Of a stretch of DNA of 46,436 nucleotides, positions 13,696 to 15,682 are shown in pieces. Positions within the stretch are counted from its first letter, which is position 1. The number at the start of each line of letters is the position of its first letter. The position numbers and the translations under genes are program-made. Origin of the DNA: Erysipelotrichaceae bacterium (GTDB lineage: Bacteria > Bacillota_I > Bacilli_A > RFN20 > CAG-449). Where the stretch lies: the NCBI GenBank assembly GCA_015059095.1, contig SVBA01000014.1, forward strand, positions 4,907-51,342, in the 5' to 3' direction. Under the pieces are notes generated by a model that was given only the letters and a program-made list of their open reading frames with translations, searched no databases and was not told the origin of the DNA.

Positions 13696-14118
13696 ATGAA
13701 CATTTTATTTTTCTTAATACCAAAAGCAAAAGTTGACTTCATTAAAGATACATCAACATTAAGACAAACAGTTGAAAAGATGTGTGATTGTGGTTTTGCT
13801 GCGATTCCAATGATTAATGAAGAAGGAATATATATTGAAACAATTACTAATGGAGATATCCTTTTACATTTAAAAGAACATTCGACATTAGATTTGTTTA
13901 AAGCAGAACATATATCTATTAAAGATGTAAAAATTAAAAGACCAACAAAAGCAATTAAAATTACTGCAAATATGGAAGATTTGATGGAAGTTGCAAAGAA
14001 TCAAAACTTTGTTCCTGTAGTTGATGATACTAATCATTTTATTGGTATTGTTACTAGAAAGGCTATCATTAATTATTTTGAAGATAAAATTAAAGAAGCA
14101 AAAAAACTAGGAGTTTAA
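13696..14118 (+). CDS. CBS-pair protein of the YkuL/DarB (CbpB) type
   Basis: A 140-residue protein consisting of two CBS motifs, about residues 10-65 and 74-130. The opening M-N-I-L-F-F-L-I-P-K-A-K-V-D-F-I followed by T-L-R-Q-T-V-E-K-M closely resembles the small Firmicute CBS proteins DarB/CbpB, which bind cyclic di-AMP and signal to (p)ppGpp synthetase or pyruvate carboxylase. Cyclic di-AMP binding here is inferred from that resemblance. A strong AGGAGGAAGG site precedes the ATG. Single-gene unit between two terminators. Confidence 0.8.
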   Translation: MNILFFLIPKAKVDFIKDTSTLRQTVEKMCDCGFAAIPMINEEGIYIETITNGDILLHLKEHSTLDLFKAEHISIKDVKIKRPTKAIKITANMEDLMEVAKNQNFVPVVDDTNHFIGIVTRKAIINYFEDKIKEAKKLGV

Positions 14119-14181: not shown

Positions 14182-14703
14182 ATGAAACTATTTAAACACT
14201 TTATTACTATTACTAAACATAGATGGTTAGTAAGAAAAATATGTTTTAAAATTGGTAGATATTGGCAAGGATTAACTCATGACTTATCTAAGTATTCATG
14301 GGTGGAGTTTTTTAATGGTGCAAAGTATTATTTAGGAACAAAAAGTCCAACGATTGCTGAAAGAGAAGATAAAGGATATTCTGCAGCATGGATGCATCAT
14401 AAAGGAAGAAACAAACATCATTTTGAATATTGGTTTGATGCTAATGAAAAAGGGATTTATGTACCAATTAAAATGCCAATTAAGTATTTAAAAGAAATGT
14501 TTGCCGATCGAGTAGCAGCGTCTAAAGTATATAAAGGAAAAGATTATTCCGAGGATTATCCTTTAGAATATTTGTTGACTCATAGAGGTAAAGAGATGCT
14601 TCATCCTGAATCTTTTGAAAAGTTAAAAGAGTGGTTAACTTTATTGAAAGATAAAGGGGAAAAAGAAACTTGTAAGATTATTAGAAAAGAAAAAAAATAT
14701 TAA
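14182..14703 (+). CDS. DUF5662 family protein
   Basis: A 173-residue soluble protein rich in His and Tyr. The motifs T-H-D-L-S-K-Y-S-W-x-E-F near residue 33, M-H-H-K-G-R-N-K-H-H-x-E-Y-W near 72, and F-A-D-R-V-A-A-S near 108 define the DUF5662 family as recalled. The clustered H-D and H-H pairs suggest a metal site like that of HD-type phosphohydrolases, but no activity is known. GAGGG precedes the ATG. It is followed by only a weak 5-bp hairpin with a T-rich tail. Confidence 0.75.
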   Translation: MKLFKHFITITKHRWLVRKICFKIGRYWQGLTHDLSKYSWVEFFNGAKYYLGTKSPTIAEREDKGYSAAWMHHKGRNKHHFEYWFDANEKGIYVPIKMPIKYLKEMFADRVAASKVYKGKDYSEDYPLEYLLTHRGKEMLHPESFEKLKEWLTLLKDKGEKETCKIIRKEKKY

Positions 14704-14705
14704 TT

Positions 14706-14730
14706 GCTAGTGAAAGCTAGCTTTTATTTT
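14706..14730 (+). terminator. Weak terminator after the DUF5662 gene
   Basis: A 5-bp stem (GCTAG/CTAGC) with a six-base loop is followed by TTTTATTTT. The short stem makes read-through into the toxin-antitoxin unit possible. Confidence 0.5.
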
Positions 14731-14737
14731 ACTATAT

Positions 14738-14761
14738 TTTGTATATACAAATGTATTTACA
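14738..14761 (+). promoter_or_regulatory. Tandem RelB-like operator palindromes over the antitoxin promoter
   Basis: A perfect 14-bp palindrome (TTTGTATATACAAA, 14738-14751) is followed directly by TGTATTTACA (14752-14761, arms TGTA/TACA), which contains the -35 box TTTACA. RelB/DinJ-type ribbon-helix-helix repressors of E. coli bind TTGTAA/TTACAA hexads in their own operators. The first gene here encodes a RelB/DinJ-like domain, so this is most likely its binding site. Confidence 0.7.
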
Positions 14762-14784
14762 AAACTATTACTTTTACATATAAT
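14756..14784 (+). promoter_or_regulatory. Promoter of the MNT/HEPN module
   Basis: TTTACA (14756-14761) and TATAAT (14779-14784) are separated by 17 bases. Initiation near 14791 would leave an untranslated leader of only about 16 bases, which is essentially the ribosome binding site. Confidence 0.75.
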
Positions 14785-14808
14785 AAAACTAGAGGTGAAT
14801 AGTTTTAT
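14783..14808. repeat. 9-bp perfect inverted repeat around the antitoxin ribosome binding site
   Basis: ATAAAACTA (14783-14791) and TAGTTTTAT (14800-14808) are exact reverse complements around GAGGTGAA. The left arm overlaps the -10 box and the right arm ends within the ATG. From the promoter above, the left arm would be mostly untranscribed, so a DNA-level operator at -10/+1 is as likely as an RNA hairpin. Confidence 0.55.
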
Positions 14809-15292
14809 GAATAAAGACTCAAATATAATTATTAGAATCGATTCCAAGTTAAAAGATGATTTTAAGGAATTATGTAATAAAAACGGCGTAAGTGTTTCTG
14901 GTGTAATTGGTATGACAATTGAAAAAATGGTTAAAAGAGATCAAATCCCAATGGCGATAACATATCGATTACGTTATTTGAAAAATTACAATAAGATGTT
15001 AACAATTCCAGTAATAAAGAAAAAATTGAAACATATTTTTGATCGAACTGAGGGAAAAGTCGAAAAAGCTTATTTGTTTGGTAGTTATTCTCGTGGAGAA
15101 GAAAATAACGATAGTGATGTTGATATTCGTTTAGTGGTTAAAAGAGGATTTACTTTAATTGATCAAGAAGAAATTATAAAAGAATGTGAAAAGATTTTAG
15201 AAAAGAAAGTAGATATTGTAACAAGTGGTAATTTAAATAGTGCTTTCTTGAACGAAATAAGAAAGGATGAAATCTGCATATATGAACAATAA
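14807..15292 (+). CDS. MntA-type nucleotidyltransferase antitoxin with N-terminal RelB/DinJ-like RHH domain
   Basis: A 161-residue two-domain protein. Residues about 5-52 read D-S-N-I-I-I-R-I-D-S-K-L-K then V-S-V-S-G-V-I-G-M and R-D-Q-I-P-M-A-I, the beta-strand/helix/helix plan and IPF-like tail of RelB/DinJ antitoxins. Residues about 85-140 are a minimal nucleotidyltransferase: G-S (92-93), ten residues, then D-V-D (104-106), with a later V-D-I (135-137). In known pairs MntA silences HepT by attaching AMP to a tyrosine. The RHH half likely binds the palindromes upstream. The ATG at 14807 follows AGAGGTGA; a GTG at 14795 lies in that site. It overlaps the toxin gene. Confidence 0.85.
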   Translation: MNKDSNIIIRIDSKLKDDFKELCNKNGVSVSGVIGMTIEKMVKRDQIPMAITYRLRYLKNYNKMLTIPVIKKKLKHIFDRTEGKVEKAYLFGSYSRGEENNDSDVDIRLVVKRGFTLIDQEEIIKECEKILEKKVDIVTSGNLNSAFLNEIRKDEICIYEQ

Positions 15293-15626
15293 AGACTTAT
15301 TTTTATTGAATGTTATCATTAATCATTATGAAGAAGTGAAAATGGCGTTGTCCGAATTAAAAAGTATAGAAGATTTTTTGAATAATGCTTATATTAGAAA
15401 GTCAATTATTTTAGATATTATTCAAATTGGAGAAAATGTTAATAAATTAAGTGATGAAATAAAGAATAAAATAGAAGAAAAAAATCTTAGGGGAGTAATT
15501 TCGTTTAGAAATTTTCTTGTTCATCAGTATGGTAATATAGATAATTATGTTGTTTGGGATACTGCTAATACTGTGTTGCCTGTTTTAATAAAAGAATTAG
15601 AAATAATAAAAAAATCTTTAATATAA
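15282..15626 (+). CDS. HEPN-domain toxin (HepT/DUF86 type RNase)
   Basis: A 114-residue all-helical protein. Its motif R-N-F-L-V-H-Q-Y gives Arg76, His81 and Tyr83, exactly the R-x4-H-x-Y motif of HepT toxins, where Arg/His cut RNA and the Tyr is the residue AMPylated by the partner. An upstream G-E-N-V-N-K-L-S (50-57) matches the conserved helix of the family. The start overlaps the antitoxin stop by 11 bases. An alternative ATG at 15267 adds five residues; neither has a well-spaced ribosome binding site, so coupled translation is likely. A terminator follows. Confidence 0.85.
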   Translation: MNNKDLFLLNVIINHYEEVKMALSELKSIEDFLNNAYIRKSIILDIIQIGENVNKLSDEIKNKIEEKNLRGVISFRNFLVHQYGNIDNYVVWDTANTVLPVLIKELEIIKKSLI

Positions 15627-15682
15627 AAATGTGTCTAGAATGAGAAATCTTTAATAGATTATCTTGTTAAGACACATTTTTT
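15625..15682. terminator. Terminator after the HEPN gene, possibly bidirectional
   Basis: A 12-bp stem (AAAAATGTGTCT with AGACACATTTTT) encloses a 33-base loop with its own small AATCT/AGATT hairpin and is followed by more T. The A-run on the left suits termination of the convergent minus-strand gene as well. Confidence 0.75.

Follow-up and report, generated by a model that had tools for sequence, protein, structure and literature searches.

Type II antitoxins usually comprise a DNA-binding half and a half that inhibits the toxin stoichiometrically, with the toxin often tuning repression; RelE, for its part, acts as a co-repressor. The E. coli operator relO, TTGTAATGACAT|TTGTAATTACAA, consists of two abutting 12-bp sites with four hexads (PMC2812701). 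These hexads are [A/T]TGT[A/C]A-like, the inner base of each being less critical, and the layout without a spacer is required, as a 2-base insertion between the sites destroys repression (PMC2812701). For proteins of the other family concerned here, the literature describes HepT/MntA enzymology, promoter binding by an MntA that lacks a DNA-binding domain, and HEPN-RHH (ribbon-helix-helix) fusions in Pyrobaculum (PMC7641770, PMC4621449, PMC2701414). Little is known about the regulation of type VII operons: in the sole reported case, the MntA of S. oneidensis, with 139 aa and no predicted or recognised DNA-binding domain, still binds its own promoter, with a 1.6-fold effect (PMC4621449), so an RHH is unnecessary for type VII autoregulation in general. 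In the Pyrobaculum fusions (paREP1), an RHH is likewise joined to one half of an MNT/HEPN pair, but it sits on HEPN with no adjacent MNT gene (PMC2701414), whereas in the locus described here it sits on the MNT antitoxin. The domains themselves are known; no earlier description was found of an RHH-MNT protein and HEPN combined with a matching operator, and a full-text search of the openly licensed literature (in itself weak evidence) returned no description of an RHH-MNT fusion beside HEPN.

The two-gene module belongs to a gut or rumen bacterium, and lies in the 46,436-nucleotide stretch of DNA analysed here (the window). As in the type VII pairs SO_3166/SO_3165 of S. oneidensis and HEPN-MNT of L. 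pneumophila, an MNT gene lies upstream of and overlaps a HEPN gene, and both folds are present. The antitoxin gene (161 aa; 14807–15292, forward strand) comes first and the toxin gene (114 aa; 15282–15626, forward strand) second, with an 11-bp overlap in one operon. The best antitoxin start is the ATG at 14807, next to a ribosome binding site, GAGGTG, at 14792–14797 (forward strand); there is also an in-frame GTG at 14795. A terminator-like hairpin at 14706–14721 (forward strand; 2 found versus 0.1 expected in shuffles) separates the module from an upstream DUF5662 gene, and a long terminator-like hairpin followed by a T run at 15625–15682 (forward strand; z −5.6) closes the transcription unit. 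A first-pass annotation made from the sequence alone had placed the module correctly, and its start at 14738 also takes in an operator that it did not mention. Just 5' of the module are genes for a CBS-domain protein resembling the c-di-AMP-binding CbpB (13696–14118) and for the DUF5662 protein (14182–14703). In all seven sibling genomes (7/7) the DUF5662 gene is present and the module is not next to it; as the gene that follows is a different one, no clean empty site was obtained among them.

We give a probability of roughly 0.8 to the reading that the locus encodes a type VII HepT/MntA pair in which the antitoxin has gained a RelB-type operator-binding domain, to be filed as a HepT/MntA variant and not under RelBE. 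The Pfam curated cut-offs are exceeded for RelB, for Polbeta/NTP_transf_2 and for HepT-like. The NCBIfam equivalog cut-offs are missed (MntA 49.2 versus 60; HepT 32.1 versus 60; RelB_DinJ, TIGR02384, 37.1 versus 45.65), which leaves Pfam, motifs and folds as the basis of the assignment. Other genera contain full-length relatives, 34–40% identical, in which the two domains follow in the same order, which speaks for more than chance.

The C-terminal part of the antitoxin (residues 72–161; 15020–15289, forward strand) is a minimal nucleotidyltransferase, as had been proposed, with matches to Polbeta (5.5e-17) and NTP_transf_2 (1.6e-13). Its GSx10DxD motif at residues 92–106 (G92, S93, D104 and D106) and a third Asp, D136, are invariant in an alignment of six intact fusions, and the spacing from D104/D106 to D136 equals that from D39/D41 to D71 in S. 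oneidensis MntA (PMC7641770). Using Foldseek, the best PDB matches of the antitoxin model are MntA 7bxo (1.4e-6) and 8xeo. The overlapping gene, which starts with the ATG at 15282, encodes a predicted HepT-like HEPN RNase toxin, again in agreement with the first reading: PF01934 matches at 1.9e-16, and the Rx4HxY motif reads R76-N-F-L-V-H81-Q-Y83 and is invariant in 8 aligned HEPN proteins. The HEPN model has a pLDDT of 91, and its best Foldseek matches are HepT 5yep and 6m6u with modest E-values, the former combining a weak E of 7.3e-3 with a probability of 1.0. GSx10DxD, a third Asp at equal spacing and the HEPN Rx4HxY are all shared with the known type VII pairs, and the toxin partner is a HEPN RNase, not one of the RelE/YafQ type. 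Some HEPN proteins of related loci carry additional parts. Those of one sub-branch (L010, L011 and L012) have an extra C-terminal stretch of about 80–110 residues with no match among the families or structures searched, which leaves a pyrophosphatase-like domain, considered as a candidate, unsupported. Others have C-terminal fusions, to ASCH in L050 (1308–1973) and to a GNAT acetyltransferase in L069 (1284–2156) and, by similarity, L062.

The same motifs bear on whether the antitoxin could be a conventional type II one, neutralising HEPN by tight binding with the MNT fold merely as a docking surface. HepT/MntA partners do bind tightly, and S. oneidensis Y104A was at first reported to be still neutralised (PMC4621449); an RHH-MNT protein with a dead catalytic motif also persists at one related locus, L057. 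However, neither this module nor those aligned relatives that retain HEPN have lost any of the three catalytic Asp, the GS motif or the acceptor Tyr, and in later work mutating either motif lowers neutralisation (PMC7641770), which makes this reading unlikely.

The N-terminal part of the antitoxin is an RHH of RelB/DinJ type (residues 6–53; 14822–14965, forward strand). PF04221 (RelB) matches these residues with an E of 1.2e-7 and 31.9 bits (cut-off 22.4), over profile positions 3–50 of 82, in line with the earlier placing of the domain at residues ~5–52. Searched alone, residues 1–57 match RelB at 3.1e-8. A profile built from 11 such N-termini retrieves DinJ/RelB structures (9lew 4e-8, 4q2u 4.1e-7, 4ml0 4.5e-7, 2k29 6e-6 and 4fxe 1.6e-5) and no better natural family, with two matches to designed helical repeats spanning 21 residues only. 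The AlphaFold model of the antitoxin (mean pLDDT 78) shows helices at 13–26 and 30–43 and a linker helix at 49–63, followed by the MNT fold. The monomer model is weak at residues 1–6 and has no ribbon strand, as expected if the RHH takes shape only on dimerisation. Binding to relO is lost when RelB R7, K13 or S28 is mutated, and the antitoxin has R10, K16 and S31 at the corresponding positions; K16 and S31 are kept in 11/11 RelB-type N-termini and R10 in 10/11. The antitoxin is therefore like those of E. coli RelBE and DinJ-YafQ, both type II, in its RHH family and key operator-binding residues. It differs from them in having only the N-terminal half of RelB, without the toxin-wrapping tail, and in having no RelE-type toxin. 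As the RelB C-terminal region is absent and the MNT domain follows instead, RelE-like wrapping is not expected. The proposal that this antitoxin unites two antitoxin strategies is thus supported with a correction: RHH repression together with MNT silencing is the best-supported reading, but there is a single strategy of neutralisation, to which an operator-binding domain is added.

Between the upstream hairpin and the antitoxin start codon there is a single strong promoter of sigma-70 type, TTTACA-17-TATAAT (14756–14784, forward strand; 11/12), and its −35 box sits inside a predicted relO-like operator, TTGTATATACAA|ATGTATTTACAA (14739–14762). As on the promoters of RelBE and DinJ-YafQ, this element consists of two abutting 12-bp sites, each a pair of hexads; in E. 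coli relO lies at −10 to +17, whereas the predicted operator lies at −35. On the minus strand 20/24 bases are identical to relO, which is the top position in the 46-kb window, the runner-up among non-overlapping matches having 17 of 24. The outer TGTA/TACA cores match those of relO and the inner hexad base varies. The two-site pattern occurs once in the window and in 0 of 100 shuffles. Six loci (the window, L008, L009, L010, L011 and L012) have a perfect pair of TGTn4ACA cores at a distance of 12 or 13 bp; one mismatch is present in L085 and two in L087 and L090, where the first site is degraded, and no relO-like operator was found upstream of L091 or L057. Allowing ≤1 mismatch, the two-site element precedes 7/11 RelB-type fusions versus 0/141 MntA genes with other N-termini, a pattern drawn from sequences already seen, for which the fair tests are this contrast with other groups and the comparison with relO. 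Only the relO comparison is independent of those sequences, and taken alone it is significant for some relatives and not for others. A scan of 147 relatives gave 6 sites, 4 of them at RelB-type fusions; the other 2, in L080 and L082, lie within unrelated coding genes or at the end of one. The relO-like operator and the three conserved relO-binding residues make it likelier that the RHH half was captured from a RelB-type locus, as had been surmised.

These observations also weigh on the idea that the RHH mainly dimerises or assembles the antitoxin, for example into a large MntA-HepT complex, with DNA binding being incidental. RHH domains are obligate dimers and S. oneidensis HepT/MntA is a hetero-octamer (PMC7641770), both of which would suit such a role. 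Nevertheless, the DNA-contacting positions R10, K16 and S31 are kept, and the relO-like element is found on the promoters of most members and is absent from the 141 MntA genes with other N-termini, so we regard a mainly structural RHH as improbable.

The module most likely operates through two activities: RHH dimers on the two sites repress its own promoter, and the MNT domain AMPylates Tyr83 of HEPN. We infer DNA binding, repression, AMPylation and toxicity here from sequence: autorepression from homology and from the conservation of residues and operator, AMPylation from the conserved motifs and the MntA literature (PMC7641770, PMC11586414). The HEPN protein would act as an RNase toxin, and the MNT domain would silence it by moving AMP from ATP onto Tyr83, beside the Rx4H active site. 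The antitoxin would dimerise via its RelB-type RHH, and two dimers would occupy the two adjacent 12-bp sites over the −35 box, repressing the operon. Upon loss of the antitoxin, the promoter would be derepressed and new, unmodified toxin would act until the antitoxin was restored.

For finding relatives, a genome search with the alignment outperformed one with the single protein, which gave no match. The full-length fusion is rare: about 395 genomes from the class yielded only three that contain it; a similar draw of genomes at phylum level gave the same three full-length matches. The named relatives are uncultured Bacillales or Erysipelotrichaceae-like MAGs. A plasmid search for the module gave no match, and phage records and viral contigs gave matches to the MNT domain only, with no full-length fusion, so carriage by phages is unsupported. 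On the MNT tree, nine intact RelB-MNT fusions and the dead-MNT L057 group together, with a support of 91 in a quick tree, and of 94/83 for the nine intact fusions in a careful tree. L091, likewise a RelB-MNT fusion and accompanied by a HEPN gene, lies on a different MNT branch. Its MNT is 61% identical to an MNT without that N-terminus, and it also lacks the relO-like element. It formed one clade with the others in 0/200 bootstrap trees, which suggests a second, independent origin of the fusion, but an AU test does not reject a single origin (p 0.24).

Downstream of the fusion, a HEPN gene is present in the window and in L009, L010, L011, L012, L085 and L091. In L008, L087 and L057 it is absent or has decayed, which suggests that antitoxins outlive toxins. 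In L057 (998–1477) the RHH-MNT protein has lost GSx10DxD and has neither a HEPN gene nor a relO-like operator; it is possibly a domesticated regulator. That the module in the window is itself decayed or domesticated, a repressor with a vestigial enzyme and a harmless HEPN that no longer form a toxin-antitoxin pair, is very improbable, since despite the toxins lost or broken at those three loci and beside two other MntA genes of the same genome (C11 and C14), both genes here are full length and overlapping, with intact motifs in one transcription unit.

The RelB-MNT fusion is real but less of a singleton than the first reading implied, as several known or putative N-terminal DNA-binding domains are common on MntA proteins of the order. 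These proteins are mostly about 160 aa long, and their extra 60 residues are dissimilar among them. The collected set, gathered through its resemblance to the RelB-MNT fusion and hence no census of proportions, contains 53 Xre-HTH-like, 31 FRVKK, 11 RelB-type and 5 CopG-like N-termini, and 61 proteins with none. The HTH type is backed by PDB profile matches to PezA and MqsA and by Pfam HTH_3, and one member of the CopG-like type is over the RHH_1 cut-off. The CopG-like RHH, which has an insertion, was seen on Eggerthellaceae/Slackia MntA in L113, L125, L141, L142 and L160, a separate RHH-MNT clade. The FRVKK N-terminus, about 55 residues with the consensus YKMYQFRVKK..., matched no known fold or family in Pfam and PDB profile searches. 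It is not called an RHH here, as its profile found no RHH structure. A palindrome, ATATGATATCATAT, lies upstream of 28/30 FRVKK genes (≤2 mismatches) versus 3/122 others, and the FRVKK N-terminus is probably a DNA-binding domain. Among the 30 FRVKK loci with a near-invariant ATATGATATCATAT are L013, L015, L019, L021, L041 and L111. A second palindrome, TGCCAAAATGGCA, lies upstream of 18/49 HTH-type genes versus 1/103 others; Xre-HTH-MNT loci include L006, L018, L020, L023, L035, L066 and L185, and others of this type carry GGACAA/TGTCC-like variants. The Xre-HTH, FRVKK and CopG types, found in Bacilli and Eggerthellaceae, share the plan of the module described here: a putative DNA-binding domain, then MNT, often with HEPN. 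The HTH and FRVKK types have their own conserved palindromes, as the RelB type has its relO-like element. The three types differ from it in DNA-binding domain and operator, and on the tree their MNT domains belong to other clades.

Four MntA genes occur in the genome of the window: one of RelB type, one of FRVKK type and two of HTH type. The palindrome of the respective type accompanies three of them (3/4), and none of the three motifs was found upstream of the remaining one, on C19. The toxin genes beside two MntA genes of this genome are broken, in C11 (L041) by an in-frame stop in the Rx4H region and in C14 (L052) by several stops. On C17 (L077:1471–2510), the genome's other RelB-family protein is followed by a Fic/VbhT-like protein rather than RelE. 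Fic/VbhT-like proteins are another family of AMP-transferring toxins.

The odds appear about even that the type VII antitoxins collected here are interchangeable repressor-enzymes, in which an adenylyltransferase repeatedly acquired differing DNA-binding N-termini (RelB, Xre-HTH, CopG, FRVKK), some with their operators, and that the RelB domain and the relO-like promoter region may have come as one piece from a relB locus. A catalytic antitoxin that would also be a two-site repressor raises the testable question of whether the toxin-to-antitoxin ratio still sets transcription when silencing is covalent. For domain swaps, the N-termini with their matching palindromes are a ready set. If the interchangeable reading is true, the paralogous modules of one genome would be wired to separate operators.
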